64,000 bases of DNA from Fibrella aestuarina BUZ 2 (GTDB lineage Bacteria > Bacteroidota > Bacteroidia > Cytophagales > Spirosomataceae): contig NC_020054.1 in assembly GCF_000331105.1 (NCBI RefSeq), positions 5,645,815 through 5,709,814 on the forward strand, given 5' to 3'. How positions within the stretch are numbered: the stretch's first letter is position 1; each line of letters opens with the position of its first letter. The notes under the pieces were generated by a model, which was not told the origin of the DNA, made no database searches, and saw only the letters and a list, made by a program, of their open reading frames with translations. Shown here piece by piece: positions 1,326-62,374 of the stretch. The position numbers and the translations under genes are program-made.

Positions 1326-2174
1326 TTAACCCGGAAGGCGTACCGAACTAAGCAGTTGCCCACTCACTGTGTAGGCCACACGCAGCATCACGATTTTCAG
1401 CAATAGTCGCCCCAGGATGATGGCTTGTTGCAGCACCACCATCAGCAAAATCAGCGGCCAGTTGCGCATCGGGAGCAGGTCATCGATCAGCAGGTACAGG
1501 CCCATCAGCCCGGCCACCAGCGCCACCAGCAGCAGGTACCGGCCAAACGTGTTTCGCAGATGGCTCAACACAAATCGGCCCGCCAGTCCAAACGCCCGGA
1601 AAGCCCCCTGCTCGTCGGTGCGGAACATGTGCACTTTGGCGTAATCGGCCACGCACCAGACCAGCAACGTACCCAGCCCGCCCACGGCAAACCCGCCGAA
1701 ACCCAGCCAGAATAGTCCCCGCTCGGTAAGCGAATCGGCGAAGGCCGTAGCCAGCAAAATCCCGATCAGGAACGGTACCAGAAACACGGCCAGTGTAAAC
1801 AGCGCTGTCACGCCCAGCAACCGAACGTACCTGGCCAGGTAGTGCGTGCCCGCCTGCCAGAACGATGGCAGAGGAATCGGGGCCGTCAGTTGAAAGCTGT
1901 AGAGCAACCCGCCCGACGCCCAGGTCCAGACCAGCACAAACAGCAGCGACGTCAACACGCCCGCCCGCAACGCCGGCCCAATCGCCTTGTCGTTATGTTG
2001 CATGAAATCGCTGACGACCGTGTAGTCGAATCCGGCGAGCAGTTGCAGTGGTGCCCGTGAGCCATCGGCCACCTCGTTCAGGCTCACAAACAGGGCATAC
2101 GTACCCGGCAGGGCCAGCAGCAGGGCAATCCCGTACAACAGCAGCAACACGCGGGGCGACGAAAGACGAAACAT
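1326..2174 (-). CDS. Integral membrane protein of unknown function
   Basis: A 282-residue protein with about six hydrophobic segments (residues roughly 8-28, 72-92, 115-140, 155-175, 210-230 and 240-262) and an Arg-rich carboxyl end. I do not recognise a defined family. A cytoplasmic loop near residues 178-208 contains charged residues between membrane spans (KVHMFRTDEQGAFRAFGLAGR), a layout seen in uncharacterised Bacteroidota membrane proteins. It lies 67 nt downstream of the M1 peptidase and 56 nt upstream of the MFS gene on the same strand, so an operon is plausible, but no functional link can be argued from content. Confidence 0.7.
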   Translation of the reverse strand: MFRLSSPRVLLLLYGIALLLALPGTYALFVSLNEVADGSRAPLQLLAGFDYTVVSDFMQHNDKAIGPALRAGVLTSLLFVLVWTWASGGLLYSFQLTAPIPLPSFWQAGTHYLARYVRLLGVTALFTLAVFLVPFLIGILLATAFADSLTERGLFWLGFGGFAVGGLGTLLVWCVADYAKVHMFRTDEQGAFRAFGLAGRFVLSHLRNTFGRYLLLVALVAGLMGLYLLIDDLLPMRNWPLILLMVVLQQAIILGRLLLKIVMLRVAYTVSGQLLSSVRLPG

Positions 2175-2241
2175 AGACGGGCAGTGAATTAAGAAACAGT
2201 AGCAGGAATGGTGAAGAGGCTTCGCTTCGTAAGAGTCAGGG

Positions 2242-4152
2242 TCACGCCAGCATCAGCCATTCGAGCCAGAAAAGAAACTTGGCGGCAAACTTGGCGGCGG
2301 GGGCCGATGACGATCTCAACGTCAGGCTGTTGTTCGTAAAATCGGTATCCATATACAGCTTTTGCTTCGGGTCGACTTCGGCCCAGTCGATGCGTCCTTT
2401 GCCACCCACCGCGAAGGTGTGCGTGCGCGCCTTTCCATCCCAGCGCAGCGTTTGTTCCCTGCCGTCGCTGAAATGAATCAGTACCTCAACGGGTAGCTGC
2501 ATATCGCCCAGCCGATCGACGCGCACCGTGGGCGAACTACCGTTGCGGATGGTGGCCAGTTTGTAGTCGCAGACCTGATCACCGAACAGCACCTGCTCGA
2601 AAAACCAGTTCATGTCAGATCCGTATTGGGCGCCCAGACGGCGCGGCACCAGCTCATTCACCACGTCAATAAAGCTCTGCGCATTAGGGTGTTTGAATCG
2701 CCATCGCAGGAAGTACGTCTGCATGATCTCGTCCATAAGTGGGCGCCCCACCAACCCGTCCAGCGTGCGCAGCCAGGTGGCCGTTTTCTGGTAGGTCAAC
2801 GAGCCATAATAACCCGCCGGTAGCTGCCACACATTTCCGTAAGCTGGCCCAATCGCCGGATTGTCGAGGTGGACGTACCCATCGCGCGATGCTTCCAGAT
2901 CGCCCATCCGAAACCCGAACCAGTCGATCTGACTTTGCCGGGGGCCATACCATTCATCCATGATTCGGCCTTCGTAATACTGGTTGAAGCCCTCGTCGAG
3001 CCAGGCTTCCTCAAACTCATTACTGGCCAATAGCTGCATAAAATATTGATGCCCAAACTCATGCACCGTCACCAGTTCCGGGAAGCGCATACCGGCGGGC
3101 AGGCCCCAGCTCGTCCCCGCCGTGATGAACGTGGGATACTCCATCCCCGCCGCCCCAGAGGCGTGCAGAGGCGGGTCCACGATCGTCAGCGTGTTGTGGG
3201 GGTACGTACCCAGGTGCCGGTCGAAGTAGGTAAGGGCTGTTTTGGCGGCGTCGAGGTGGCGTTGGGCCTGCGCGCTGTGTTCGGGTTGCAGCAGCAGCCG
3301 GATACGTACCTGATTACCCGCCCGGCCTTTCCAGGTATCGTTGACTACCTCGAACTGGGGCGAGGCGGTCCAGGCAAAATCGACCACATCGGCCGCCTGC
3401 CAGCGCTGGGTTTTGGTGCCATCGCGGTTTACGGTTTCGCGTAGCAACTGCCCCGTCGCTCCGATTTGCAGGGTTTTATCCGTCGTAATCGACACGTCGT
3501 AAGTACCGTAATCAGCGTAGAACTCCGAGTGCGCGTGAAACTGGTGGCAGTTCCAACCGCCCTGGGTACGTCCCCGCACGCCCGCCGCTTCGTAAACCGC
3601 GATCTTGGGAAACCACTGGCCGACCAGAAAAAAATCGCGGCTGAAGCCCGTCCGGGCAAAGATTTTAGGCAGCTTGGCCTCGAACGCCATATCGAGTTCA
3701 ATGGTCTCGCCGGGGCGTACTGGGCGGCTTAGCGGCACCCGCATCACCGTCCGGTCGTCGGGGTTGAGGTCGTCAGGCTGGGCAAAACGCATCGCGCCCG
3801 TCAGGCGCTCGCCGGTGCGGCGGTCGGTGAGGGTTGTGACCTTCGTCCAGCCGTAATTGGCCTGCTCTGATTTGTCCATCTGATCGCCCCGCAACTGCCC
3901 GCCCGACTCGCGCATGAACGTCGATTTCTGATCCCGAAACGCGTTGAGATACAAGTGGAACCAAAGCTCACGAATCGGGTCGGTCGAGGTATTGCGCCAG
4001 GTGAGCGTCTGCCGCCCATCGAGGCGCCTGGTCGTCGGGTTAAGCCGCACGTCGATCCGGTAATTGGCTATGCGCGGACTCAGGGCAACGTCGGCCCGGG
4101 CCAGGCTGGCCCAGAGGCATAAAGGCAGCAGAAGCAGGTACAGGCGAGGCAT
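2242..4152 (-). CDS. M1 family zinc metallopeptidase, exported
   Basis: A 636-residue exported aminopeptidase-type enzyme. From the chosen ATG the protein opens with a clear signal peptide (MPRLYLLLLPLCLWASLARA). An in-frame ATG 78 nt upstream would put a polar lead in front of it and is unlikely. The M1 zinc site is intact: HEFGH at residues 364-368 and the third ligand Glu in WLDEGF at 387, exactly 18 residues after the second His. An upstream HASGAAGMEYP segment corresponds to the GxMEN substrate loop, with Tyr-Pro following the Met-Glu. The N-terminal part is the beta-rich M1 saddle domain. It probably trims peptides in the periplasm or on the surface. It diverges from the small membrane protein at 4216, with promoter-like elements between them. 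Confidence 0.88.
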   Translation of the reverse strand: MPRLYLLLLPLCLWASLARADVALSPRIANYRIDVRLNPTTRRLDGRQTLTWRNTSTDPIRELWFHLYLNAFRDQKSTFMRESGGQLRGDQMDKSEQANYGWTKVTTLTDRRTGERLTGAMRFAQPDDLNPDDRTVMRVPLSRPVRPGETIELDMAFEAKLPKIFARTGFSRDFFLVGQWFPKIAVYEAAGVRGRTQGGWNCHQFHAHSEFYADYGTYDVSITTDKTLQIGATGQLLRETVNRDGTKTQRWQAADVVDFAWTASPQFEVVNDTWKGRAGNQVRIRLLLQPEHSAQAQRHLDAAKTALTYFDRHLGTYPHNTLTIVDPPLHASGAAGMEYPTFITAGTSWGLPAGMRFPELVTVHEFGHQYFMQLLASNEFEEAWLDEGFNQYYEGRIMDEWYGPRQSQIDWFGFRMGDLEASRDGYVHLDNPAIGPAYGNVWQLPAGYYGSLTYQKTATWLRTLDGLVGRPLMDEIMQTYFLRWRFKHPNAQSFIDVVNELVPRRLGAQYGSDMNWFFEQVLFGDQVCDYKLATIRNGSSPTVRVDRLGDMQLPVEVLIHFSDGREQTLRWDGKARTHTFAVGGKGRIDWAEVDPKQKLYMDTDFTNNSLTLRSSSAPAAKFAAKFLFWLEWLMLA

Positions 4153-4160
4153 CGGTTCGG

Positions 4161-4168
4161 TATTTTTG
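4161..4168 (+). promoter_or_regulatory. Putative -7 promoter element, plus strand
   Basis: TATTTTTG followed by C matches the Bacteroidota primary-sigma -7 consensus TAnnTTTGC. It would give a leader of roughly 45 nt for the small membrane protein at 4216. No well-spaced TTG -33 box was found. Confidence 0.45.
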
Positions 4169-4172
4169 CGAC

Positions 4173-4201
4173 TAAAAGTAAAACTTTGTCCGTTCTGGCC
4201 A
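4173..4201 (-). promoter_or_regulatory. Putative promoter of the M1 peptidase
   Basis: On the minus strand a TTG (4201-4199) lies 18 nt before TACTTTTA (4180-4173), one base off the TAnnTTTG consensus. The expected transcript would start about 15-20 nt before the ATG at 4152. It overlaps the region of the opposing plus-strand -7 element, so the two divergent genes may compete for polymerase. Confidence 0.4.
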
Positions 4202-4215
4202 ATGCCGCTTCCCTT

Positions 4216-4476
4216 ATGACAAATGCCCAACTGACCTGGCTTGGTAAACTCCTCCTCAACCTGTTGGGCTTGGCGGTGGCGATCTGGTTTGTGTACCGGG
4301 CCGGGCTTAACATACTGTTGCTATTCAGTTACCGGTCGTTGGCCACCAACCCGCTGTATGGGTTTCTGGTGCATGATCTGGTCATCATCGTCATCGGGCT
4401 TATTGCCATCTGGTCTTGCTTCCGGCTGGTCGAAAATCTCTACAAGCTCGCCATCAACCCGCCCCGCAACGCCTAG
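4216..4476 (+). CDS. Small membrane protein, two transmembrane segments
   Basis: An 86-residue protein with two hydrophobic helices (about residues 10-40 and 53-75) joined by a short polar loop and ending in NPPRNA. I recognise no named family. An in-frame TTG ten codons upstream is possible, but the ATG is preferred because the protein then begins MTNAQLTWLGKLLLNLL, close to the first helix. It sits between the divergent M1 peptidase and the downstream helicase (66 nt gap) and may share a transcript with the helicase. Confidence 0.6.
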   Translation: MTNAQLTWLGKLLLNLLGLAVAIWFVYRAGLNILLLFSYRSLATNPLYGFLVHDLVIIVIGLIAIWSCFRLVENLYKLAINPPRNA

Positions 4477-4542
4477 CGGTCCAACGCTGGCTCGTCGCTC
4501 ATTCCGTCGTATTTTAGCAGACAAATTTGAGCCTGCCGTCCG

Positions 4543-7038
4543 TTGAAGTCTGCTTCCCCCATCAATCAGCGCCTTGAACTAGCGCACAGCTACGTCCTGC
4601 ACACCAACCAGAATGTGTTTCTAACTGGTAAAGCGGGCACGGGCAAGACCACCTTTCTGCACCAGATCAAGCAGTTATCGGCCAAACGGCTGGTGGTCGT
4701 CGCACCAACGGGCGTGGCCGCTATCAACGCCGGCGGTGTCACCATTCATTCGCTGTTTCAGCTTCCCTTCGGGCCGATTATTCCGGGCGCCAAACAGGAA
4801 AACCGGAAGTTCTCCCGCGAAAAAATCCGTCTGCTCCGTACGCTCGATCTGCTCGTTATCGACGAAATCAGCATGGTTCGGGCCGACGTGCTCGACGGTA
4901 TTGATGAGGTGTTGCGGCGCTACCGCTACAGCCAGGAACCGTTTGGTGGGGTGCAACTGCTACTTATCGGCGACATGCAACAACTGCCGCCCGTGATCCG
5001 CGACGACGATTGGGCGCTGCTTCGCCCCTACTATGAATCGGGTTATTTTTTCAGCAGCCACGCCCTGCGCGAAACGCCCTATGTGTCGATCGAACTGACA
5101 CACATCTATCGGCAGGCCGACCAACGCTTTATCAATCTGCTTAACGGTATTCGCGAGAAGACGATCACCGCTGAAGGCCTCGCCGACCTCAACCAACGCT
5201 ACGTACCTGATTTTACCCCCAACGACCGCGACGGCTACATCACGCTGGCGACCCACAACCAGACTGCCCAGCAGATCAACAGCCAGAAACTCACCGACCT
5301 CACCACCCGCCTGCATACCTACGAAGCCGTAGTCACCGACGACTTTCCCGAGCCGATGTACCCGGCCGAATTCTCGCTCGAACTGAAAGTGGGCGCGCAG
5401 GTGATGTTTGTCAAAAACGACAGCTCGCCCGATAAGCAGTACTACAACGGCAAGATTGGCCAGATCGCCGAACTTGGCTCTGACTACGTGAGCGTGAAAT
5501 GCGCGGGTGAGTTTGTGCCCATCGTGACCGGGCCCGTCGAGTGGCAGAACATCCGCTACAGCCTCGACGCCAAAACCGGCGAGATCCAGAGCGAAATCAT
5601 CGGTACGTTCACGCAGTATCCGCTGCGGCTGGCCTGGGCCATCACCATTCACAAAAGCCAGGGGCTCACGTTCGAGCGGGCCATCATCGACGCCGGGCGG
5701 GCCTTCGCACACGGGCAGGTGTATGTGGCGCTCAGCCGCTGCAAAACCCTCGACGGCCTCGTGTTGCGCACGCCCATTCCGGCCAGCAGTATCAAAACCG
5801 AGTTTGATCTGGAGCGTTTTCACGAAGACGTGCAGACCAAAACACCCACCGAGCAACACCTGCACAACGCCAAACGCGCCAATCAGGAGCAGTTGCTGCA
5901 CGATCTGTTTGCGTTCGAACAGGCCGCTTACCTGCTGAGCCGCGTCCGCAAGGTCGTCGACGACAACGTCCGCACGCTGCCGGCTCCGTTGGTGGAGCAG
6001 TTGAACGAACTCCAGACTACGCTGACCGATAAAGCGCGGGTGGTGGGGCACCGGTTCCGGAAACAGTTACCCAATTATTTTGGTCAGGAGCCCCTCCCCG
6101 AAGCCAACACCGACCTGCAACAGCGCATCCAGAAAGCTGGAGCCTATTTCAAAACCGTGCTCGCCGACGAATTGCTCCCGCTGATCTACGACGCCCCCAC
6201 CGATACCGACAACAAGCAGGTACGAACCGATCTGCTCGAAGCCCTCGACGAACTGGAACGCGAGCTGACCACAAAACTAGCCCTCTTTACTCGCTGCGCC
6301 GAGGGCTTCGATGCGCTGGCCTATCTGCAGGTACGTAACCAGGCCGAACTGGCCTTTATGCCCAACCGCAAAAAAGTGGAGCGCGCCGCCGGGCAACCCG
6401 ATAAAGCCCCGAAAGCGGGTGACCGCAGCAATCGGCCCAGCAGCCTCTATTTCGAATTACTGAAATGGCGGGGCCGCATGGCCGAAGAGCACAACAGCCC
6501 GGCCTATTTCATCATGAGCCAGCAAACCGTGACCGAGATTGCGACCAAGCGCCCGGAAACGATCGACGCGCTTGCCAAGATCAAGGGCGTCGGGAAGGCT
6601 AAGGCCAAACGCATCGGCGACGAAATCCTGGCCATCATCGAACAGAATCCGGCCGATGGCCGCCCGGATGGACCACCGGCTCCAAAAGCCAATGTGTACG
6701 CCAAAGCAGGCGAAGCACCCGCCAGAAAAGCAACGAACAAGGCTGACAAAGAGCCCGTGTACGAAGCTACCCTGAAACTGTTTCTGCTGGGCAAGTCGAT
6801 TGCCGCGATTGCCGAGCTGCGCGGCGTCACGGAGCAGACAATCGAGAATCACCTCACCCGTTGCATTAACCTCGGCCTACTGCCCGTCGAAGCAGTCCTG
6901 TCCGCCGAGAAACTGACGCTCATCTACAATACCCTTGGCTCCAAACGCCCCGCCAGCCTCACCGACGCTGTGCAGCAACTGGACGGCCTGGTCAGCTACA
7001 CCGACCTGCGCTTTGCTTACGCAGCGGTAGGTCGCTAG
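4543..7038 (+). CDS. PIF1/RecD-like helicase with HRDC and HTH C-terminal domains
   Basis: An 831-residue superfamily 1 DNA helicase. Walker A is GKAGTGKT at residues 29-36, Walker B is LLVIDEISM, and the PIF1-type GDMQQLPPV motif follows. The distal motor domain contains RLAWAITIHKSQGLTFE, the RecD/PIF1 motif with the conserved H-K-S-Q-G. After a helical region comes an HRDC-like domain (about residues 630-710, with IKGVGKAKAKRIGDEIL) and then a helix-turn-helix tail (SIAAIAELRGVTEQTIENHL) like the one ending RecQ proteins. It probably unwinds DNA during repair or replication restart. The start appears to be TTG: an in-frame stop lies 13 nt upstream and the first internal ATG is beyond Walker A. 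The gene stands alone, followed by an AT-rich promoter region. Confidence 0.88.
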   Translation: MKSASPINQRLELAHSYVLHTNQNVFLTGKAGTGKTTFLHQIKQLSAKRLVVVAPTGVAAINAGGVTIHSLFQLPFGPIIPGAKQENRKFSREKIRLLRTLDLLVIDEISMVRADVLDGIDEVLRRYRYSQEPFGGVQLLLIGDMQQLPPVIRDDDWALLRPYYESGYFFSSHALRETPYVSIELTHIYRQADQRFINLLNGIREKTITAEGLADLNQRYVPDFTPNDRDGYITLATHNQTAQQINSQKLTDLTTRLHTYEAVVTDDFPEPMYPAEFSLELKVGAQVMFVKNDSSPDKQYYNGKIGQIAELGSDYVSVKCAGEFVPIVTGPVEWQNIRYSLDAKTGEIQSEIIGTFTQYPLRLAWAITIHKSQGLTFERAIIDAGRAFAHGQVYVALSRCKTLDGLVLRTPIPASSIKTEFDLERFHEDVQTKTPTEQHLHNAKRANQEQLLHDLFAFEQAAYLLSRVRKVVDDNVRTLPAPLVEQLNELQTTLTDKARVVGHRFRKQLPNYFGQEPLPEANTDLQQRIQKAGAYFKTVLADELLPLIYDAPTDTDNKQVRTDLLEALDELERELTTKLALFTRCAEGFDALAYLQVRNQAELAFMPNRKKVERAAGQPDKAPKAGDRSNRPSSLYFELLKWRGRMAEEHNSPAYFIMSQQTVTEIATKRPETIDALAKIKGVGKAKAKRIGDEILAIIEQNPADGRPDGPPAPKANVYAKAGEAPARKATNKADKEPVYEATLKLFLLGKSIAAIAELRGVTEQTIENHLTRCINLGLLPVEAVLSAEKLTLIYNTLGSKRPASLTDAVQQLDGLVSYTDLRFAYAAVGR

Positions 7039-7228
7039 GTACGGTCATCTGTAAACAGAGACTAGTTACTTATCAACAGGCTCGCCTTCTACGACTGTTT
7101 GTTAAACAGCTGGCAGTCAATCCATACAAAAATATCGTCATATAAGTAAAACTATTTAGTTAGTTTCCTATAGATTTAGTAGTCAACTATTGGTTACGAA
7201 ACATTTTTCATCTTTTACCGCATAGTGC

Positions 7229-7259
7229 TTGCGCACAAGCTGTTAGCCGCCTAGTTTTG
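7229..7259 (+). promoter_or_regulatory. Putative Bacteroidota promoter for the TPR gene
   Basis: A TTG at 7229-7231 and TAGTTTTG at 7252-7259 are separated by 20 nt, fitting the TTG-(19-21)-TAnnTTTG arrangement of Bacteroidota. They lie at the end of the AT-rich gap 7039-7300, in which I see no gene. The predicted leader is about 40 nt. Confidence 0.55.
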
Positions 7260-7300
7260 AGTGCCTAACAGAAATTTTTAACTGCCACAAACCAGCTTCA

Positions 7301-8653
7301 ATGAAAAAATTCTATGCCTCCCTTTTTGCTGTCAGCTTGGCCTTGTTGACGTCGACAGGGGCCTTCAGCCAACAGACAGCTGTTGATTTTTTTAATGAAG
7401 GTATCCAGAAAAGTAACGCCAAAGACTTCACGGGTGCGCTTCAGGCGTTCACTACAGCCATCATCATGAACCCGGAAAATGCCCCTAGTTATTACAACCG
7501 GGCATTGGCCAAAACGAGCCTGAACGACATCCAGGGAGCCGTGTCGGATCTCGACCAGGCGATTGAGTTAAATCCGCAGGAAGCCAATGCGTATCTTTAC
7601 CGGGGTATAAATCGGTCGAAACTGGAAGACAACCGGGGCGCCATGCAGGATTTCAACCGGGCCGTTGAACTCAGCCCCAATGATGCATTCCTGTACTACA
7701 ATCGGGGTCTTTGCAAACTACAGCTGGGCTACTCAGCCGCAGCGTTGAACGACTTCAACCGGGCCTCGTCACTATCACCCAACGATGCCAACATCCTCAC
7801 GGCACGGGGTAACTGCAAAAATGGCCTGAACGACTTCCGCGGTGCACTGGCCGATTTTGGTCTGGCGCTGGAAAAATCGCCCAACAAAACGACGGCACTC
7901 TCGGGCCGGGGCTACTCACGCTTCAAGTTGGAAGATTACAAGGGCTCGCTGGCTGATTTCTCGCGGGCTATTGAACTGGCCCCCACCGATGCCGATCTGT
8001 TTTACAAGCGTGGTCTGGTCAAAACCCGCATGGGCGAATTCGACAACGCCGTTGTGGATTACAACAAAACGCTTGAACTGAACCCCAATCATTATAAGGC
8101 GTATTTCAGCCGGGGCTTCTGCCGCAGCCGCACGGGCAATGCCAAAGTGGCGCTCGGCGACCTCGACAAGTCGATCGAAATGGACAACCGTTCTATCCAG
8201 ACCAAAGCGTATTACAGCGAGTTTATCACCCAAAACATGCTGCCTCTGTTCGCCACCGTGGTACAGGAGCGGTATAAAGTGGCTGAACTTGGCGACGACC
8301 GCGCCGATGCCTACATCGTTCGGGGTATGCTGAAAAACGCCAACGGCGACAGCAAGCCAGCGCTACTCGATCTGAACCGCGCCGTTGAACTGAACCCCAC
8401 GAGCGCCGAGTCGTATTTTATCCGCGGCATCATCCGCTCATCGCTTGGCGACCAGAAAGGGGCCATGATCGATTGCAACAGCACGGTTCGGCTGAACCCG
8501 CGCCACGCGGAAGCCTATTACCTGCGCGGCCTCATCCGCTACGATACGGGCGATGAGGTGAGCGGTTGCGCCGACCTCAGCCGTTCGGGTGAACTAGGCT
8601 ATGTGCAGGCCTACAAAATCATCACCGAACGGTGTAATAAGACAGTACGTTAG
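7301..8653 (+). CDS. Exported tetratricopeptide repeat protein
   Basis: A 450-residue protein with a cleavable signal peptide (MKKFYASLFAVSLALLTSTGAFS) followed by about eleven consecutive TPR units of 34 residues. Their repeating pattern A..Y..RG....L.D..GA..D...A..L.P is plain throughout. One irregular spacer near residues 300-330 breaks the run. The array should form a superhelical scaffold for protein contacts in the periplasm or on the outer membrane. No enzymatic domain is present. It is monocistronic, with its own promoter and a strong terminator immediately downstream. Confidence 0.85.
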   Translation: MKKFYASLFAVSLALLTSTGAFSQQTAVDFFNEGIQKSNAKDFTGALQAFTTAIIMNPENAPSYYNRALAKTSLNDIQGAVSDLDQAIELNPQEANAYLYRGINRSKLEDNRGAMQDFNRAVELSPNDAFLYYNRGLCKLQLGYSAAALNDFNRASSLSPNDANILTARGNCKNGLNDFRGALADFGLALEKSPNKTTALSGRGYSRFKLEDYKGSLADFSRAIELAPTDADLFYKRGLVKTRMGEFDNAVVDYNKTLELNPNHYKAYFSRGFCRSRTGNAKVALGDLDKSIEMDNRSIQTKAYYSEFITQNMLPLFATVVQERYKVAELGDDRADAYIVRGMLKNANGDSKPALLDLNRAVELNPTSAESYFIRGIIRSSLGDQKGAMIDCNSTVRLNPRHAEAYYLRGLIRYDTGDEVSGCADLSRSGELGYVQAYKIITERCNKTVR

Positions 8654-8672
8654 CCTCAATGCCCAATGCGAA

Positions 8673-8705
8673 AGGCCCGGCTCATCCAGAGCCGGGCCTC
8701 TTTGT
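8673..8705 (+). terminator. Rho-independent terminator of the TPR gene
   Basis: A perfect 11-bp GC-rich stem (AGGCCCGGCTC, 5-nt loop) is followed by CTTTGTTTT. It lies 20 nt after the TPR stop codon and faces the convergent vanZ-like gene. Confidence 0.85.
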
Positions 8706-8730
8706 TTTACGCTGGTTGCCAGCTGATCAA

Positions 8731-9899: not shown

Positions 9900-9900
9900 A

Positions 9901-51579: not shown

Positions 51580-51586
51580 TGCCGCG

Positions 51587-53246: not shown

Positions 53247-53264
53247 GTCTTTCCGTGACCTTGC

Positions 53265-53834: not shown

Positions 53835-53842
53835 ACCCGAAG

Positions 53843-56314
53843 TTACTCGCTAACTTTTAGTTTCTGGCCTAGGCGGGCATTCATATCGGGAAGTTTATTC
53901 CACTCCACCAATTGCTCCACCGTTACGCTGTACTGCCGGCTGATGCTATAGAGGGTTTCGCCCTTGGCCACAACGTGGTAAACGGGGCCGGTGGGTGGCG
54001 TCACGGGTGCCTCCGGCTCTTCGGTCGTGGTGGTTGTGGTAGTCGACCGGGGCGGCGTCACCGTTACGGGTTGGCCCACCGGATAGCCCGGCTGCACATT
54101 ACGAACGCTCAGCTTCTGCCCTACCGCCAGTTTGTTATCCAGCGACAGCGAATTGGCGGCGAGGAGGTCGTCGACCGTTACGCCGTAGTATTTCGAGATG
54201 CTGTAATACGTCTGGCCGGCCTCGACGGTGTGGGTCATGGTGCGGCCACCGCTGTTGGGGGCGGCTTCGGTGCGCGGCCGGGTCATGGGCGGCAACGGCG
54301 GCACACTGCCTTCCCGGCCTTGGGTCGGCGTAGCGTCGCGCTCGCTGATTGGTGTCTGCGGTAAAACCTGGGGCGACGACTGGCGTGGCTTAGTCTGCGC
54401 GGTCCGGCTTAGCTCAGGGTCGGGCGTATCGGGGTAGCTCGTGGGCTTCGGGCGGCTGATGGGCTCGTCAGGTACGTTGCCACTCTGGCTGGCTGGCGTC
54501 GAACTGCTGCGGTCTGTCTCGGCCGGGCGGCGTTTTGGCACCGTAGTGGCTACCGGTTCTGGCGAGGCGGTACTGCCTGCCCCGGCTACATCGGTACGGG
54601 CTGGCGTGGTGCGCTCCCGCAGCGGCTCCCCTTCCGACCGTACGATGATGGTCCGCTGGGGCGAACCGGCATCCGAGCGCGGCAAGGTTACTTCGGCGGG
54701 TTGGCTGCTGGGTACGTCGGCGACCATGGGTGGCACCGTCAGGGTGGGCGTGGGCGTAGCCGTGCGCGGTGTACTGGCGGTCGGTTTCGGAGCCGCAGCG
54801 ACGTCCGTAGTCGGCTGGTCGGCAGGCGTTGCCGACGGCGTGGCGCTGCCAATCAGTTTGGGCTGGTAGCGACGCCGTTCCGAGGCGTTGCGCGGAATCT
54901 GGCCGTTGCTGGCTACGGGTTGCGTGGGGGTGGTTGAAGGCGTAGCCGGCGTAGGGTCATACACGGGCGGCGTGGGGCCGTTGATAATCTCGACGGGCGT
55001 TTTGGCCGGGCGTTTCTCCCGCAACCACAGCACGCGCCCGACCTGTAGTTTTTGCACCCGGTCCATCCGGTTGTATTTCAGCAGCTTCTTCAGCCGAATT
55101 CCGTAGCGTTGCGAGATGCTGCGCATCGACTCGTCGGCGCGGGCCGTGTGGAAAGGTACCAGTGCTTTCTTGTATTTTTTGGCCAGGTAATACACCTCGC
55201 CCGTCGTGACCAGATCGCGGTCGGTGAGTTCGTTATACCGCAGGAAACTCGACAGGCTGATCTTGGCTTTGCGGGCGAGCGAACCGGGGTTGTCGCCCGC
55301 CTGCGCCTGGATCCCCGGCAACCCGTTGATCTCGTACAGAATCGGGTCATCGGCCGAGCGCGCCGTGGTGGTTACCTTCCGCAAGACCGGGAAGCCCACA
55401 TCATCCGCCGCTACGTTCTTGAGGGGCTGGTTGGAGGTTTGGGCAATGCGCTGGCGCAGGTCGTTGATCTGGCTATTGGGCGTCGGGATGGTCAGCACGT
55501 GATTGCCCGACGTGGGTACGTGGTCGATCAGCAGCCAGCGGTTGTAGGTACGTATGTCGGCGGGATTGAGGTTCAGTTCAGCGGCCAGCCCATCGATGGT
55601 TTTGCCACCCGCATTGGGGTACTCGATGAGCGAGAAGGTCGAGGTCGACTGGTGCGTTTTGAAGGCATATTCGACGGCAATCTTATGGGCAAAAAAGCGC
55701 AGAATGTACCGATCGGTGCGGCCGTCGAGCGTGATGTCTTTGGCGTTGGCCCAGTCGGGCGAGACCAGCTGGCTGATGCCGCCCGTGCCCAGGTAGAACG
55801 AGAACAGCGCCGATACCCAGTTGTTATACATGCCGTTGCTGCGGCGCAGGTAGCGGGCGGCAGCGCGGGTCGAGGCGGTGATGTTTTTGCGTTCGTCGAC
55901 TTCTTCGTTCACCTGCAGGCCATAATCCCCGGCGGTTTCGCGCTTAAACTGCCAGAAGCCCACCGCCTGCGACGACGACACGGCATCGGGCGTGAGGGAG
56001 CTTTCCTGTAGGGCCAGGTATTTAAAATCCGTGGGAATGGACTCACCCAGCAGCACACTTTCGATAATCGGGAAGTAAAGCTGCGCCCGGTCGAGTTTGG
56101 CATCCCAATACTGGCGGTTCACCATCAGGGCGTTGATGTCCTGCTGCACCAGGCGGCGGGCGTTGGGTTCAAACCGAACGGTCAGGTCAGCAAACTGCAC
56201 CTGGTCAGGTGCGTTGGGCGGCGTCATCGGCGCCGACTGGCCAAATGTAACCCCCGGTAGACCCGGCCACAGTAAGCCAACAAAGACAATCAGGTAGACA
56301 AAGCGATTTTTCAT
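53843..56314 (-). CDS. MltD-like lytic transglycosylase with LysM repeats
   Basis: An 823-residue cell-wall enzyme. Signal peptide [21 protein letters not shown]; a SLT domain with the catalytic Glu104 in [25 protein letters not shown] and [14 protein letters not shown]; then LysM-like units near 395-450, and two clear C-terminal LysM repeats ([24 protein letters not shown] and [24 protein letters not shown]). A Pro/Thr/Ser-rich linker of roughly 240 residues (about 465-700) precedes them. It should cleave peptidoglycan while the LysM units bind glycan. The ATG before KNRF is chosen; 26 upstream residues are Cys-rich and unlikely. Confidence 0.9.
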
Positions 56315-56324
56315 AGGGTATAGG

Positions 56325-56966
56325 CTACCGCTTACGAACGAGTAACAGACCGTCGCGCACGGGCAACAGGACGTTCTCGACACGGTCATCATGGTGAATT
56401 TTCTGATTAAAGGCCAGCACCGCCTGCGTATCCCGATCGGATGTTTTCACAGGCTGCACCACTTTACCGCTCCACAGCACGTTGTCGGCCAGGATAAACC
56501 CGCCGGGGCGCACCTTATCGAAAACGAGGTCGTAGTAAAGCGCGTAGTTTTCTTTATCGGCGTCTATAAAGACCAGATCGAACACCTCATCGAGTGCCGG
56601 AATCAGCGCCGCAGCCTGCCCAAGGCGCAGTTCGATCTGCGCGGCCCAGGGTGTTGTCTGCCAGTAGCTACGCGCAAAATCGGCCAGTTCTTCGTTGTTG
56701 TCGAGTGTGATCAGCCGACCGTCGGGCGCGAGGCCTTCGGCGAGGCAGAGGGCCGAATAGCCCGTGTAGGTCCCGATCTCTAGCACCCGGCGCGGGCGGA
56801 TCATCTGGGCAATCATGGCTAAAAAACGCCCCTGTATATGCCCGGAGAGCATGCGGGGCCGGAGCACATGGGCGTGGGTATCGCGGTTGAGCCGACGAAG
56901 CGTCTCGCTTTCGGGCGAGGTATGGGCATCGGCATAGGCCGCAAGATCAGCAGCAATAAACTCCAT
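56325..56966 (-). CDS. Class I SAM-dependent O-methyltransferase
   Basis: A 213-residue enzyme of the catechol/caffeoyl-CoA O-methyltransferase family (COMT-like): VLEIGTYTGYSALCLAEGL (SAM motif I), VFIDADKENYALYYD with the metal-binding Asp, and PGGFILADNVLWSGKV. It methylates a hydroxyl group using a divalent metal; substrate unknown. The gene starts 650 bases from the lytic transglycosylase stop region and ends 10 nt before the transglycosylase ATG, so they may form one transcript. Confidence 0.9.
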   Translation of the reverse strand: MEFIAADLAAYADAHTSPESETLRRLNRDTHAHVLRPRMLSGHIQGRFLAMIAQMIRPRRVLEIGTYTGYSALCLAEGLAPDGRLITLDNNEELADFARSYWQTTPWAAQIELRLGQAAALIPALDEVFDLVFIDADKENYALYYDLVFDKVRPGGFILADNVLWSGKVVQPVKTSDRDTQAVLAFNQKIHHDDRVENVLLPVRDGLLLVRKR

Positions 56967-57119
56967 TCGGTTAATCCGGGAAATCGGCGAGACAGCGAGG
57001 ATTGTACCGGTAAAGGTACGCTTTTCCAGCTAAACGAAGACGGACCCAAACGTTGGTATACAAAGTCGCTGGTTAGGGGCGACTTCTGAGTAAGCGCAAA
57101 TTTCCCGCCAAATTCGCCG

Positions 57120-57127
57120 TACTTTTG
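57120..57127 (+). promoter_or_regulatory. Putative -7 promoter element of ndk
   Basis: TACTTTTG followed by C matches TAnnTTTGC, 28 nt before the ndk ATG. No well-spaced TTG is seen. Confidence 0.5.
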
Positions 57128-57155
57128 CGGCCAAATAAACGTTGCTCACGCATCA

Positions 57156-57575
57156 ATGACGACAAACCGCACATTCACCATGATTAAGCCCGACGCCGTT
57201 GCCGAGGGCCACACGGGTGCCATTACGAAACTGATCGAGGAAGCGGGCTTCCGCATCGTAGCGATCAAAAAAACCCGGCTCACGCCTGAGCGTGCCGGCG
57301 AATTCTACGCCGTCCACAGCGAGCGGCCGTTCTACAACGACCTGAAAAACTACATGTCGTCGGGGGCTATCGTGCCGATGATTTTGGAGAAAGAAAACGC
57401 CGTGACCGATTTCCGGAAGCTCATCGGGGCCACCAACCCCGCGCAGGCCGAAGAAGGCACCATCCGTAAGCTGTTTGCCAAGTCGATCGAAGCCAACGCC
57501 ATCCACGGCTCTGACTCCGACGAAAACGCGCAGATCGAAGGCAACTTCTTCTTCTCCGGGCTGGAGCAGTTTTAA
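57156..57575 (+). CDS. ndk: Nucleoside diphosphate kinase
   Basis: A 139-residue NDP kinase balancing (d)NTP pools. The phospho-accepting His117 is in [12 protein letters not shown]; other family blocks are [30 protein letters not shown] and [18 protein letters not shown]. Length is standard and the protein ends FFFSGLEQF. It is followed by a hairpin shared with the convergent nth gene. Confidence 0.96.
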
Positions 57576-57581
57576 TGGCCA

Positions 57582-57644
57582 ATGAACGATGTATAATGTA
57601 CAATGGAGTAAGATCAACCCCATTGTACATTATACATCGTTCAT
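57582..57644. repeat. Perfect 25-bp-arm inverted repeat between ndk and nth
   Basis: The arms 57582-57606 and 57620-57644 are exact complements with a 13-nt loop. Words ATGAACGATGTATAATG and GTACAATGG relate it to the element at 45439. The right arm overlaps the last codons and the stop of nth. Confidence 0.9.
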
Positions 57645-58286
57645 AATACATTCTTTTTCGTAGTACTTACAGACGGGTTTAAGGGCACACTCGGCGCATT
57701 TGGGTGAGCGGGCTATGCACACGTAGCGGCCGTGCAGGATCAGCCAGTGGTGAAACCGGGGCACCAGTGCCGTCGGGATGTGGGCCATCAGGCTTTTCTC
57801 AACGGCCAGTGGCGTAGTGGCCGTTCTGGGCACCAGCCCAAGCCGGTGCGATACCCGAAACACGTGCGTATCGACCGCCATCGCCGGTTGGTTGTAGACC
57901 ACCGACACAATCACGTTGGCCGTCTTGCGCCCCACACCGGGCAGCCGTTGTAACTCGGCCACCGTCGCGGGAATTTCACCGCCAAATTCACTCATCAGGA
58001 GCCGGGCCATGCCGACCAGATGCTTCGCTTTGTTGTTTGGATACGACACCGAGCGGATGTAGCTAAACACCTCCTCGACAGAGGCTGCCGCCAGCGACTC
58101 GGGCTCGGGAAAACGGGCAAACAGAGCGGGCGAAATCTGGTTGATGCGCTTATCGGTACACTGCGCCGACAGGATTACCGCCACCAACAACTCATACGGA
58201 TTACTGAAGTGTAGTTCGGTTTCGGCGGTGGGGAAGTGCGTGGTAAAGTAGTCGATCAGGAAGCGGAAACGGTCTTTCTTCAGCAT
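57630..58286 (-). CDS. nth: Endonuclease III
   Basis: A 218-residue bifunctional DNA glycosylase/AP lyase removing oxidised pyrimidines. The helix-hairpin-helix is LQRLPGVGRKTANVI with catalytic Lys121, the second catalytic residue Asp139 is in AVDTHVFR, and the Fe-S cluster is CIARSPKCAECALKPVC (C-x6-C-x2-C-x5-C). The last residues (CIMNDV) and the stop codon are provided by the inverted repeat, so the tail differs from the usual end after the cluster. A TATCTTTG element ends 4 nt before the ATG. Confidence 0.93.
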   Translation of the reverse strand: MLKKDRFRFLIDYFTTHFPTAETELHFSNPYELLVAVILSAQCTDKRINQISPALFARFPEPESLAAASVEEVFSYIRSVSYPNNKAKHLVGMARLLMSEFGGEIPATVAELQRLPGVGRKTANVIVSVVYNQPAMAVDTHVFRVSHRLGLVPRTATTPLAVEKSLMAHIPTALVPRFHHWLILHGRYVCIARSPKCAECALKPVCKYYEKECIMNDV

Positions 58287-58311
58287 AGCCAAAGATACGG
58301 CTTCCGCGCCG

Positions 58312-59079
58312 CTACATAAACTCAAACCCTTTCATGAATTCGTCGCGGTACGACCGGCCAATCGGCAGGGCGTGTTTACCCACGATCACCTCGCCTTCGC
58401 TGAAGCTGTCGATGTGGCGCGTATTGACGGCGTAGGAGCGGTGAATGCGGCAGATTTCGGGGCTCTGCATTTTCTCGATTACCTTGCTGAGCACCTCGCG
58501 CAGCGTGTATTTCAGGTCGCGCGTCACGATGTCGGTGTAGTTGCCTTCCGATTGCAGGAACAGTACATCGTCGAGCCGAAACTTCACGAACCGGTAGTTC
58601 TGCTTGATAAAGAAATGATCTTTCACCAGCAGCAGCGTTTCGTTTTTCAGCATCGCCTCGCTGGCTTCGCTGGTAACGTGCCCCGGCGACAGCGCCGATT
58701 TTTGCAAGGCAAAATTGTGAATCGCCAGATCGATGGCGATGCGCAGATTGAGGTCGTTGAAGGGCTTGGTAATGTAGGCCGAAGGCGACACCTGCCGGGC
58801 GCGCTCGATGGTGGGGCCGTCGGTGAGGGCTGTCAGGAAGATAAACGGGATGGGCTGCAACTGCCGCAACCGCCGCGCCGACTCGATACCGTCCCACTCA
58901 CCTTTGATGTTGATATCGAACAGCACCAGATCGACGGTCATTTGTTTTACGATGCCCAGGGCCTGCGGGCCATTGTCGACGGTATCGACAACAGTATACC
59001 CCAGATCGGACAGCCGTTGGGCAAGGTCCATCGCCAGGATCGCCTCGTCTTCCACAATCAATATAGAAATCGCATTCAT
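58312..59079 (-). CDS. LytTR response regulator
   Basis: A 255-residue DNA-binding response regulator. The receiver domain has the acidic pair Glu10-Asp11, phospho-acceptor Asp55 in LVLFDINIKG and Lys in AYITKPFND. The LytTR domain (about residues 150-255) carries DDVLFLQSEGNYTDIVT, SPEICRIHRSYAVN and LPIGRSYRDEF. It lies 8 nt downstream of the histidine kinase gene and is its probable partner. It is followed by nth at 25 nt, which may be in the same transcript. Confidence 0.92.
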   Translation of the reverse strand: MNAISILIVEDEAILAMDLAQRLSDLGYTVVDTVDNGPQALGIVKQMTVDLVLFDINIKGEWDGIESARRLRQLQPIPFIFLTALTDGPTIERARQVSPSAYITKPFNDLNLRIAIDLAIHNFALQKSALSPGHVTSEASEAMLKNETLLLVKDHFFIKQNYRFVKFRLDDVLFLQSEGNYTDIVTRDLKYTLREVLSKVIEKMQSPEICRIHRSYAVNTRHIDSFSEGEVIVGKHALPIGRSYRDEFMKGFEFM

Positions 59080-59087
59080 AGGGTAAG

Positions 59088-61235
59088 CTAAACGAAATGA
59101 AAGGGCATGTCGAGCTGAAACACCAGCCCGTTGCCCGATCGGAACTGGCAGGTGGCCCGCAGCTGCTTTGTGAGCGACTGCACCAGCTGCATCCCGAACG
59201 TTTTTGATCGAATGGCGGGTGGCACCGTAGCCGTAACCTCGCCGGGCAACGTACCCATATCTACCAGCATCGCCTCGGTGCGAAACAGACTCGGATGGCC
59301 GTCGGGCAGGCCCGGTCCGTTGTCCTGCACCGTCAGCCGCAACTGCGCGGGTCGGCCAGCGCCCAGTATTGGCGGATCGATGGTCTCCAGCCGCACGGTC
59401 AGCGCCGGCCGGTCGACGGTACGGTAGGCATATTTAAACGAATTTGTGATTAGCTCATTAATAATCAACCCGAGCGGAATGGCCGTGTCGGTATCGAGCC
59501 GTTGTTGCGTAATGTCGAGCGTCAGGTCGAAGTCGTCGGGCCGGTAGCCGTAGGTCGTCATCAGGTTTTCGACCAGATCGGTCACGTAATTGCTGAAGTT
59601 AATGGCCGTTACGTCGTCGTTGGTGTAGAGGCGTTGATGTAACATCGACATGGCTTCGACCCGGCTCTGCCCCTCGCGCACCGCCGCCCGCGCCTGTTGA
59701 TCGGTGAGCCGCCCCGATTGCAGACTCAGCAGACTCGACACGATTTGCAGGTTGTTTTTCACGCGGTGGTGCAGTTCGCGCATGAGCAGCGTCAGTTGGT
59801 CCGACTGGCGTTCGATCTGCTCTTTCTGGCGCTGAATCCGCCGGGCGTCGCGCTGTTTGAGTCGGTACAGCGCCCATACCACCGCCAGCAACCCCACCAC
59901 CAGCAGCAACCCGGCCACCAGCCACCGCAGCTGCCATTTACGCAATTCATTCTCCCGGTCCAGAAAGGCAATCCGCTGCTCTTTCTTTTCGGTTTCGTAG
60001 GTTACCTGCAGGTACGAAAACTGATCACGAAAGCCCGCCGTGTAGAGCGAGTCGCTCAGGGCTTCGTTGGCTTTGCGCACAGCCAGCGCCTCGGCGGGCT
60101 GGCCGGCATCTTCCAGCACCTCGGCCAGGATGGTGTTGGCTTCGCGTCGTTCGTTTTTGTTGTGCGCCTGAAAAGCCGCCATTACGGCATCGCGGGCCTG
60201 CCCAATCGCCACATCCTTGCGACCCAGTGCACTGGTGGCCTTGGCCAGGTACATCAGCGATTGCGCCAGCATACCTTCGTTTTCCTGCCGGGCCAGTGCC
60301 AGCGCCTGGCGGGCGTGGCGCTCGGCCTGCAAAGCCTGCCGTTTCACCAGACACAAGCGGGCCATCAGCACGTGCGCCATGGCCAGCTGGGTCTGCATGT
60401 TGGTTTTGCGGGCCTCGCGTAAGCCCCAGTTGGCAAGCGGCTGCGCCGAATCGGGCCGGTTCATGTCGAGGTAGTTCCCAGCAATCATCAATCGGCACAA
60501 ATTAGTCGACTGCGGATCGTTGGACGCCATAAAATGACCAGCGGCCTTCCTGAGCATCTGAATGGCCCGCTGCGGATTGTCGAGTTGCGAATAGATGTTG
60601 GCGATGTTCCCCTCGGCCAGCCCCATCACGTTCTGGTCGTTTTGCCGATCGGCTTCGCGCAGGGCCCGGTGGTAATGGCTCAGCGCCTGCCCGTAGTTGC
60701 CCAGATTGTCATAGAGCATACCCAGGTTATTGACGATCAACGGCCGGATATCATCCTGCTCGGGACCAGCGGCGCGCGCGAGGGCTTCGCGCATCATGGG
60801 CAGGGCTTCGGCGTTGCGCCCTTCGTCGACGTAGGTGAGGGCCAGGTTCATCAGCATCCTCACCAGCTTGTCATTGTTGTGCTGGGTTTTGGCCAGTTGA
60901 ACGCCCACTTTGAAACATGAATCGGCGCGGTGTGTCTGCCCCATCGTCGAATAGGCCCCCGCCAGGTTATTGATGGCGATCAGGTGGAGCGTATCGTTGG
61001 GAAAGCGTTTCAGCAAGGCCAATCCCTGTAGCGCATAGTCACGGGCCTGCGTTACGTGGCTGTACAGCAGCGCATCTGACAGGCGGATGGCTAGTTCGGC
61101 ATGCCTCGGGCCAACCGGGCGGCTATACAACGTGCGCAGGCTATCGATCCGCCGCAACTCGGCCACCTGCCCGAAGGCAAGCTCAGTTGTGGCCAGCCAG
61201 CCACTAATCGACGATATGATGACCAATAAACGCAC
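59088..61235 (-). CDS. TPR sensor histidine kinase (HisKA_2 type)
   Basis: A 715-residue sensor with signal-like amino terminus, about seven to eight TPR units in the periplasmic part (residues about 40-380, for example ALSHYHRALREADRQND), one membrane helix (WLVAGLLLVVGLLAVVWALY), a coiled coil, then the HisKA_2 domain with phospho-His near residue 490 in LMRELHHRVKNNLQIVSSLLSLQ and an HATPase_c domain (INELITNSFKYAY, VQDNGPGLPDG, FGMQLVQSLTKQL). It presumably signals to the LytTR regulator next to it. Start is GTG, which lies in a hairpin; no in-frame ATG is available. Confidence 0.88.
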   Translation of the reverse strand: MRLLVIISSISGWLATTELAFGQVAELRRIDSLRTLYSRPVGPRHAELAIRLSDALLYSHVTQARDYALQGLALLKRFPNDTLHLIAINNLAGAYSTMGQTHRADSCFKVGVQLAKTQHNNDKLVRMLMNLALTYVDEGRNAEALPMMREALARAAGPEQDDIRPLIVNNLGMLYDNLGNYGQALSHYHRALREADRQNDQNVMGLAEGNIANIYSQLDNPQRAIQMLRKAAGHFMASNDPQSTNLCRLMIAGNYLDMNRPDSAQPLANWGLREARKTNMQTQLAMAHVLMARLCLVKRQALQAERHARQALALARQENEGMLAQSLMYLAKATSALGRKDVAIGQARDAVMAAFQAHNKNERREANTILAEVLEDAGQPAEALAVRKANEALSDSLYTAGFRDQFSYLQVTYETEKKEQRIAFLDRENELRKWQLRWLVAGLLLVVGLLAVVWALYRLKQRDARRIQRQKEQIERQSDQLTLLMRELHHRVKNNLQIVSSLLSLQSGRLTDQQARAAVREGQSRVEAMSMLHQRLYTNDDVTAINFSNYVTDLVENLMTTYGYRPDDFDLTLDITQQRLDTDTAIPLGLIINELITNSFKYAYRTVDRPALTVRLETIDPPILGAGRPAQLRLTVQDNGPGLPDGHPSLFRTEAMLVDMGTLPGEVTATVPPAIRSKTFGMQLVQSLTKQLRATCQFRSGNGLVFQLDMPFHFV

Positions 61236-61285
61236 AGGGAGGCGGGCAATTTCGCATAAACATACGCCGATTGCCCGCCTCCCTG
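61235..61285. repeat. 16-bp-stem hairpin over the kinase start codon
   Basis: CAGGGAGGCGGGCAAT (61235-61250) pairs perfectly with 61270-61285 across a 19-nt loop. The left arm touches the first base of the GTG start of the histidine kinase. There is no T run on the minus-strand transcript, so it may influence translation or processing and not only termination. Confidence 0.75.
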
Positions 61286-61360
61286 GCCAATTCTATTGTT
61301 CGCTTTGTTGCTTATTTGTTAAGCGGTAGGTAACTACCTAAGCGTATACTTACTTCGTTA

Positions 61361-62161
61361 TCAATGGCTCGCAGTGAGTTCGCTATAATGAGCCAGGCAG
61401 GCATCCCATAGGCCGATGCGGGCTTCGATGGACCGGATAGCCCAATCGGTGGCTTCCTGCCAGCGCCCCGACTCATCGCCGCACAGTTCGCTCACCATCT
61501 GCATGGCCAGGTGGCTGTGGTGGTCGCCGTCGACCTCGATGTGGCGCTCCAGGTAATAGCGGAACGTTTTGAGCGGGCCGGGCGCGGCTTCGTCCATCCG
61601 TTGCACGAATTCCAGAAACATGTCGGGGATGAGGTCTTCACGCCCAAACGTAAAAATCGACGCCATGATGTGCGGCTGTTGGGTGGCAATGGCCTCGAAG
61701 GTAAACGCCACGAACCGCCGAACGCCCTCTGGCAGGTCGGTCGCTTGCAGGGCGGCCTCCACCGACGTCCCCCGCCGCAACTGATCCAGGAAACCATCGA
61801 TCAGCGTGGGTTCAGCGCCCATCTGCTGCATCGCCAGCCGGTAGAGTTCGAAGTGGCTGATCCGGTCGTTGGGGTCACCGAGCCACGCGGGCATTTCGTC
61901 GCTTTCTTCGCCCGTCACGATCTCGTTAATCAGGTAGCGGGTGGTGCCGGAGCCCACGGGCATCCAGGGTACCGTTACGCAGGTCAGGTCGCGTTGCAGG
62001 GCTTTCAGCAGCGACATAAAATCCCACACGGCAAAGGCGTGGTATTTGGTCAGGTCGCGCAGGCCGTCGAGATCCTGCACGGCCTGGTAGATGGGGTGAG
62101 TCAACAAGCGTTGCCGTACTGGCGCCAGGGCGGTGTTCAGGCTGTCGATATGAGCGTTCAT
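61361..62161 (-). CDS. DUF3050 haem-oxygenase-like protein
   Basis: A 266-residue all-helical protein resembling DUF3050, with a haem-oxygenase/TenA-like fold. Conserved polar residues are in HAFAVWDFMSLLKALQRDLTCVTVPWMP, INEIVTGEESDE, HFELYRLAM, FTFGREDLIPDMFLEF, and YYLERHIEVDGDHHSHLAMQM, whose Glu and His residues could bind two metal ions as in haem-oxygenase-like diiron oxidases. No signal peptide. It is monocistronic. A diiron role is inferred from fold family only. Confidence 0.8.
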   Translation of the reverse strand: MNAHIDSLNTALAPVRQRLLTHPIYQAVQDLDGLRDLTKYHAFAVWDFMSLLKALQRDLTCVTVPWMPVGSGTTRYLINEIVTGEESDEMPAWLGDPNDRISHFELYRLAMQQMGAEPTLIDGFLDQLRRGTSVEAALQATDLPEGVRRFVAFTFEAIATQQPHIMASIFTFGREDLIPDMFLEFVQRMDEAAPGPLKTFRYYLERHIEVDGDHHSHLAMQMVSELCGDESGRWQEATDWAIRSIEARIGLWDACLAHYSELTASH

Positions 62162-62318
62162 GGAGTTGGATGATCAACTGTGATCTTGTTGATTGGGTAA
62201 TCGTTTGTTGGGGAAAATGGTTTGCGCCGTTGCTACCGAAACGGGCCTTATCCTGAACTATTCTTTCCCAAACGTTAGCAGAGGCTACGCAAACCGTTCG
62301 CAGGCCGTGCGGGCTCAT

Positions 62319-62347
62319 AAAAAAACCTGCCTCGATGCCGAGGCAGG
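62319..62347 (-). terminator. Terminator of the symporter gene
   Basis: On the minus strand a perfect 9-bp stem (CCTGCCTCG, loop of four) is followed by seven T, about 28 nt after the symporter stop. It also could stop transcripts coming the other way. Confidence 0.85.
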
Positions 62348-62374
62348 CTTCAGGTACGTTACCCGATCTCTACG

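Follow-up and report, generated by a model that had tools for sequence, protein, structure and literature searches.

The octamer GGTACGTT, read on either strand, recurs throughout a 64,000-nucleotide stretch of the chromosome of Fibrella aestuarina BUZ 2 (contig NC_020054.1, positions 5,645,815 to 5,709,814; hereafter the window), and belongs to a slightly longer asymmetric unit, YRGGTACGT(T), whose over-representation is real, strong and maintained at the level of DNA. Loss of existing copies is slow, a slowness seen only in those species in which the word is dense; two sister species nearly lack it, and other relatives carry related words. On balance we lean towards viewing YRGGTACGT(T) as a lineage-specific DNA-level word resembling the highly iterated palindrome HIP1, read by a putative binding factor. 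No earlier report of this word was recognised among the entries listed in searches of an open-access subset of the literature.

Results

Abundance and boundaries of the word

A preliminary description of the window had put GGTACGTT at about 38 copies, 19 in each orientation, and a recount returned exactly these numbers. It had also set the chance expectation at about two copies, a figure reproduced by dinucleotide shuffling of the window (mean 1.73 and maximum 6 in 100 shuffles, both strands) but raised to 4.05 by a third-order Markov model of the window, which still fails to predict the 38 seen. The octamer itself is slightly mis-bounded with respect to the fuller unit. The window holds 68 copies of RGGTACGT (32 on the plus and 36 on the minus strand, spanning 1667..63055), and 33 of the 38 octamers are among these. 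The preferred extension of the core GGTACGT is YRGGTACGTT: in a 444-kb sample of F. aestuarina, comprising the window and 19 chromosomal stretches, the dinucleotides CA and TG precede the core at 4.3 and 4.9 times their background before GG, against 2.0 times for TA and 1.1 times for CG, and the base on its 3' side is most often T (276 of 561). The palindromic form GGTACGTACC occurs 13 times in the same sample.

The complete genome (contigs of 6775444 and 161819 bases, the latter a plasmid) carries 4103 copies of GGTACGTT versus 123 of the reversed word, and RGGTACGT averages about one copy per kb. Totals of RGGTACGT are comparable in three dense species, namely F. aestuarina (G000; 7044), Fibrivirga algicola (G001; 6261) and F. 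forsythiae (G003; 7322), at 12 to 13 times (13 times in F. aestuarina) the expectation of a motif-masked order-2 Markov model scaled up from sampled stretches. In the sparse pair, F. rubiginis (G002) and F. aquatilis (G004), they fall to 1261 and 1190 (2.6 and 2.4 times expected), and in the other 195 of the 200 genomes of the family they never exceed 1127. The nearest named MalQ loci, those of F. aquatilis, F. rubiginis, F. forsythiae and Fibrivirga algicola, are 83-86% identical. The enrichment in related genera that the preliminary description had proposed to look for is strong in Fibrivirga algicola, and takes the form of related words in other Spirosomataceae.

The plasmid of F. aestuarina contains at least 83 of the octamers, and a 20-kb sample of it has roughly the chromosomal density (20 RGGTACGT versus 1.5 expected). 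A 50-kb stretch of the plasmid of Fibrella sp. ES10-3-2-2 has 36 versus 4.6 expected, and 11 of 19 aligned plasmid copies are identical between the two plasmids, as compared with 18.4% of other 7-mers. Sequences differing from the core by one mismatch show no surplus, with 1055 observed against 1310 expected in F. aestuarina; ratios of observed to expected, at 0.81-0.85 in the dense and 0.92-0.95 in the sparse species, indicate a mild depletion that is slightly stronger in the former.

Independence from codons, frame and strand

Codons were permuted among synonymous positions within each gene, a procedure that fixes proteins and codon usage and does not preserve codon pairs. In the coding part of the F. 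aestuarina sample (405 kb), GGTACGTT occurs 255 times against 29.9 after shuffling, and RGGTACGT 453 times against 60.9, an approximately 7-fold excess. Shuffling leaves similar excesses of RGGTACGT in Fibrivirga (92 versus 9.1) and F. forsythiae (100 versus 9.9), and smaller ones in F. rubiginis (18 versus 6.5) and F. aquatilis (12 versus 7.0). All six classes of frame and orientation are occupied in the 444-kb sample, by 44 to 113 copies each, and coding and non-coding DNA, as delimited by a crude longest-open-reading-frame (ORF) rule, carry 1.12 and 0.92 copies per kb. Together with the retention of copies beyond codon-matched expectation (below), these patterns support the preliminary proposal of a function or process acting on the DNA itself. 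Spacing is close to random and Poisson-like (coefficient of variation 1.05; variance-to-mean ratio 1.09 in 2-kb bins), and the two orientations are about equally frequent, at 2029 and 2074 for GGTACGTT and 3572 and 3472 for RGGTACGT.

Within positions 1666-62400 of the window, RGGTACGT favours the minus strand over roughly the first 30 kb and the plus strand beyond that point, with a cumulative range of 21 versus 10.3 in shuffled orientations. We rejected this switch as a signal, as it parallels the local GC skew and the left flank divides 23 to 21.

Retention of copies between species

Orthologous genes (167 reciprocal best pairs) were compared between samples of Fibrivirga and F. forsythiae (about 273 and 320 kb, respectively), after removal of sites spoiled by alignment gaps and with an expectation taken from the behaviour of the same codons elsewhere in the same genes. 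From Fibrivirga to F. forsythiae, 135 of 217 aligned core copies are identical, and among the 169 copies that lie entirely under unchanged amino acids 130 are kept versus 36.0 expected (3.6-fold). The corresponding values from F. aestuarina to F. forsythiae are 17 of 38 and, with amino acids unchanged, 15 of 20 versus 3.8. No such excess is seen where a sparse species is involved: from F. rubiginis to F. aquatilis 3 of 18 copies are kept (amino acids unchanged, 3 of 14 versus 4.4), in the reverse direction 3 of 12 versus 3.9 with amino acids unchanged, and from the dense Fibrivirga to the sparse F. aquatilis 2 of 33 (2 of 16 versus 2.1). For twelve control 7-mers, kept and expected numbers ranged from 1 versus 2.0 to 14 versus 8.2.

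Retention centres on the word together with the two bases immediately 5' of it. Identity exceeds the codon-phase expectation by at least 0.05 at positions -2 to +5 and at +8, and by 0.03 at +6; elsewhere between -10 and +16 the excess is at most 0.03. The flanks matter in the same sense, with 54 of 62 copies of YRGGTACGTT kept versus 13.0 expected, 68 of 82 of YRGGTACGTV versus 17.9, and, for the poor flank NYGGTACGT, 5 of 15 versus 3.5.

Occupancy, loss and gain

In the sampled proteins of the three dense species the core occupies 34% of the places that the protein sequence permits, compared with 7-10% in the two sparse species; a word in DNA thus fills one third of the positions open to it. 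Permitted places are themselves more frequent in the dense species (3.4-3.8 versus 2.6-2.7 per kb), as though the word had influenced protein sequences as well. A two-state fit to the Fibrivirga/F. forsythiae counts (130/39/33/237), with 15 pooled control 7-mers as baseline, gives a loss rate 0.23 times (0.16-0.31) and a gain rate 2.14 times (1.54-2.89) that of the control words, and a fixation bias S of 2.23 (2.04-2.43). Under a constant bias with S=2.2 the expected ratios are 0.27 and 2.47. The slow loss is firm. The raised gain stands when control words are the baseline; against the sparse pair, where events are few, it does not.

Biased mutation, the alternative offered in the preliminary description, is therefore excluded in one form and less firmly in another. 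Mutation towards the word cannot be the sole cause: an increase in it would not alter loss, which proceeds about 4 times more slowly than for the controls. Protection of existing copies from mutation is only disfavoured, because it would leave gain unchanged.

Related words in other Spirosomataceae

The same codon-controlled scan, applied to genomes of the family, uncovered further words built around a TA centre. In G142, a member of genus g5, which we take to be Spirosoma, the word is YRNTACGT, exemplified by TGCTACGT (73 versus 4.9 after codon shuffling). Copies of YRHTACGTT number 14406 in this 8.7-Mb genome, 7270 in G209, 6892 in G157, 5815 in G164 and 2815 in G127, compared with about 700-1920 in the other 31 of the 36 genomes of the genus. 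On 50-kb plasmid stretches, YRHTACGT occurs 52 times versus 16.0 expected in Spirosoma sp. KNUC1025, 27 versus 20.3 in S. oryzicola, 14 versus 17.3 in S. linguale and 10 versus 14.7 in Runella slithyformis. A third dialect is found in G027 (GGTACTTT 98 versus 12.4, AGGTACCT 47 versus 4.5 and GGGTAGTT 40 versus 5.0 under codon control) and in G020 (GGTAGTT 37 versus 7.2 and GGTACTT 39 versus 9.5 in 60 kb); RGGTASTTT totals 7781 in the former and 2854 in the latter, and does not exceed 1094 in any of the remaining 198 of the 200 genomes. The Fibrella word shares its left part, RGGTA, with G027 and its right part, CGT, with G142, and we read this as a sign that the two parts evolve separately.

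The scattering of one dialect across genus g5 suggests repeated loss. When the 10 genomes rich in any dialect (G127 included) are placed on a tree built from a single BamA-like protein in 30 genomes, they need 8 changes versus 8.5 with shuffled labels; for the sparse Fibrella pair, this single-protein tree does not distinguish loss from original absence. Weak words in G018 and G023 faded when larger samples were shuffled, and G021 was weakly positive (CGCTACGT, 18 versus 3.4). Of 51 MalQ loci, 47 belong to other taxa, and from these only two, of Xanthocytophaga and Mucilaginibacter, were covered, by an exploratory k-mer scan alone. As a separate observation, GGTACC stands about 3-4 times above the codon-shuffled level in 20-kb stretches of G016 (L143; 24 versus 6.0) and G007 (L112; 21 versus 7.5), possibly a further dialect GGGTACC, and is absent from the top words of another G007 stretch (L111).

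Candidates for a reading factor

Three methyltransferase families were considered as a common trans-acting factor and rejected, none being present in all dense genomes: PF01555 had no match in G001, G142 or G164, PF02384 none in G001, and PF00145 none in G209, G157 or G164. PF00145 is the only one of the three left for the Fibrella dialect. Long C5 enzymes at first seemed to correlate with the dense species; identity between those of G000 and G003 is 61-68%, whereas the best match to those of G001 reaches 24% over 246 amino acids, in a comparison using the one full G000 enzyme and leaving out a second, short G000 match (C2:2290159), so the G000 and G001 enzymes compared are not close. The C5 DNA methyltransferases of G000 and G003 are in themselves unusual, at 709-780 amino acids with repeated internal segments (L246 1360-3489, L248 1192-3531, L249 772-2958).

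Components of natural transformation likewise failed to separate dense from sparse genomes. No convincing member of PF00437, the PilB/PilT-type ATPases of type IV pili and type II secretion, was found in 19 genomes, where 12 gave weak partial matches, two of these just above the cut-off (pilins were not part of the search), and ComEC is encoded in all 19, the sparse ones included. In G023 (C1:2279751-2280553) the ComEC (Competence) domain is divided between two reading frames, unlike in the other 18.

Discussion

A mechanism consistent with these findings can be outlined in conditional terms. The word would be held at about one copy per kb on chromosome and plasmid alike by a sequence-specific DNA-binding factor able to read it from either strand. 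New copies would arise by ordinary mutation and, it seems, be slightly favoured, while losing an existing copy would be slightly disfavoured, with 2Nes of about 2.2 per site when control words serve as baseline; a fixation bias of this kind may account for the slow loss better than mutational protection. The presumed role would lie in DNA maintenance, be it repair, recombination, nucleoid organisation or recognition of resident replicons, as has been suggested for HIP1 of cyanobacteria. Such a factor is predicted to be common to the dense genomes and absent or broken in their sparse sisters.

Among the analogues named in the preliminary description, HIP1 fits best, and Chi and KOPS (FtsK-orienting polar sequences) do not, given the nearly equal genome-wide orientations. 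HIP1 sites are conserved between genomes, as are the Fibrella copies beyond codon expectation. The Fibrella word also resembles HIP1 in lying far above Markov and codon expectations, in its high frequency of about one per kb, and in its loss or replacement in some lineages; PMC4390886 describes HIP1 (GCGATCGC) and alternate forms in cyanobacteria at about that density, lost or replaced by another word in certain lineages. According to the same source, HIP1 is palindromic and generally accompanies GATC/CGATCG methyltransferases, whereas YRGGTACGTT is asymmetric, is hosted by Bacteroidota, and is not tracked by any of the three methyltransferase families searched. What HIP1 does is itself still open, as PMC4390886 offers a model rather than a demonstration. 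In this light, a natural experiment is provided by close relatives that carry or lack the word, by its three or more dialects and by a rate of loss that can be measured per site.

Several observations weigh against or limit this interpretation. Going from F. forsythiae to Fibrivirga, 9 of 16 copies bearing the poor flank NYGGTACGT were kept versus 3.0 expected. Among non-coding sites, 11 of 30 were alignable and 4 identical, with about 2.5 expected. Copy density in genes without a sampled ortholog (0.87 per kb in Fibrivirga, 1.13 in F. forsythiae) is close to that in genes with one (1.02 and 1.04), an equality not obviously expected of a slow process unless donors also carry the word. When the sparse pair serves as baseline (3/11/9/133), the loss ratio is 0.16 (0.07-0.33), or about 6 times slower than in that pair, but the gain ratio is 1.08 (0.45-2.45), which does not establish a raised gain. 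The rates derive from one dense species pair under assumed stationarity, and the 15 control words were hand-picked, their counts being rebuilt from rounded rates. The fit is moreover the same for selection, for biased gene conversion or recombination, and for a drive through DNA uptake, and the reader of the word is a putative factor.

The strongest rival is a DNA uptake sequence (DUS), in which transformation prefers word-bearing DNA and recombination drives accumulation, with dialects as in Neisseriaceae. PMC3630211 reports thousands of DUS copies there, in dialects with a common core. That likeness extends to the thousands of copies of the Fibrella word and to its own dialects sharing a core. 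In length and density, too, DUS and the uptake signal sequences (USS) of Pasteurellaceae are similar to the Fibrella word. An asymmetric word at about one per kb with equal orientations, a dialect family around a TA centre, a patchy distribution and the presence of ComEC in 19 of 19 genomes all accord with uptake, and a drive of this kind resembles the fitted fixation bias in its mathematics. We nevertheless judge it rather unlikely, since the search of 19 genomes produced no convincing pilus motor, ComEC is shared by the sparse genomes, and the word is roughly as frequent in the plasmid sample as on the chromosome. Genomes with USS, furthermore, have a surplus of near-miss copies, which a graded uptake bias should leave and which the dense species lack, and the distribution here is patchy even within a genus.

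A methylation-directed ratchet, following Elhai's proposal for HIP1, would have a methyltransferase mark the word and mismatch repair bias mutation towards it. HIP1 occurs at the same scale of about one per kb with the same sporadic replacement by other words (PMC4390886), and different dialects could use different enzymes; we consider this account improbable all the same, in view of the failure of PF01555, PF02384 and PF00145 to track the word (PF02086, PF07669 and other classes were not searched) and the distance between the C5 enzymes of G000 and G001. Chi sites and KOPS are short, asymmetric, over-represented words, and a polar signal of this sort for RecBCD/AddAB or FtsK might explain why neighbouring copies in F. 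aestuarina agree in orientation slightly more often than in shuffles (258 of 470 versus 234.5, p 0.015). Most of that agreement, however, comes from the window (43 of 67 versus 33.1), where polarity follows the GC skew; without it the numbers are 215 of 403 versus 201.1 (p 0.09), and Fibrivirga and F. forsythiae together show none (292 of 572 versus 285.3). Orientation has no clear trend along the 19 chromosomal 20-kb stretches, for which origin and terminus were not located, genome-wide polarity is lacking, and Chi enrichment is lower than that of the Fibrella word, so that we give this reading very little credence. Equally hard to credit is the idea that the word reflects a bias in codons, codon pairs or mutation and has no function, a reading that also covers protection of existing copies from mutation. 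Most copies do lie inside genes, and the clear difference in loss only, obtained with the sparse-pair baseline, is also what protection would produce; yet the excess survives synonymous shuffling (codon pairs were not separately modelled), all frame and orientation classes and non-coding DNA carry the word, relatives at 73-80% mean protein identity in sampled orthologs have far less of it, retention is well above codon-matched expectation, and both loss and gain differ from control words.

Beyond a HIP1-like word in one lineage, a broader proposal, which we hold only tentatively, is that the Spirosomataceae possess an unrecognised genome-labelling system. It would employ an asymmetric word made of two parts, RGGTA or YRNTA on the left and CGTT or STT/YTT on the right, each changing independently of the other from genus to genus and giving the dialects YRGGTACGTT in Fibrella, YRNTACGT in Spirosoma-like genomes and RGGTASTT in G027 and G020. 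Its reader would evolve fast and often be lost, and weak selection would act at every site on chromosome and plasmid, perhaps marking self DNA.

Positions in the window and additional observations

All 38 copies of GGTACGTT are exact matches. Those on the minus strand lie at 1666..1673, 1824..1831, 9826..9833, 11263..11270, 13711..13718, 14397..14404, 14529..14536, 16016..16023, 18182..18189, 21737..21744, 23200..23207, 26796..26803, 32174..32181, 34878..34885, 35466..35473, 36524..36531, 36552..36559, 39170..39177 and 59248..59255. On the plus strand, copies are found at 5602..5609, 18439..18446, 20499..20506, 24543..24550, 31141..31148, 32030..32037, 34915..34922, 44283..44290, 45677..45684, 50365..50372 and 53359..53366; three more fall outside called ORFs, at 30668..30675, 53176..53183 and 62353..62360, each one base from the position (30667, 53175, 62352) at which a copy in a gap had been noted before. 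The remaining five plus-strand copies (36303..36310, 39438..39445, 40408..40415, 47120..47127 and 54471..54478) are contained in the 13-mer CAGGTACGTTGCC, which had been credited with at least five occurrences and is present five times, starting at 36301, 39436, 40406, 47118 and 54469. The palindromic form GGTACGTACC is present, as exact matches, at both sites previously given for it, 3201..3210 and 15744..15753.

The window also encodes, at 4543-7038 on the plus strand, a helicase with a RecD2-like N-terminal part and a RecQ/RNase D-like C-terminal stretch, all matches being below curated cut-offs. In one set of stretches from the sparse species (L082-L086, L092-L096), repeated 10-mers were seen in F. 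rubiginis (AGAGGTAAGA/AGAGGCAAGA) and F. aquatilis (CGATGTACGA, CGAATTACGA), perhaps representing short dispersed repeats. The plasmid of Fibrella sp. ES10-3-2-2 (CP155472.1) contains a defence-like island (L252 5913-14918) with genes for an RloB family protein, an ATP-binding protein, a site-specific DNA-methyltransferase, a DEAD/DEAH helicase and a Piwi-domain protein; relatives of its methyltransferase and helicase part align on the plasmid contig of F. aestuarina.

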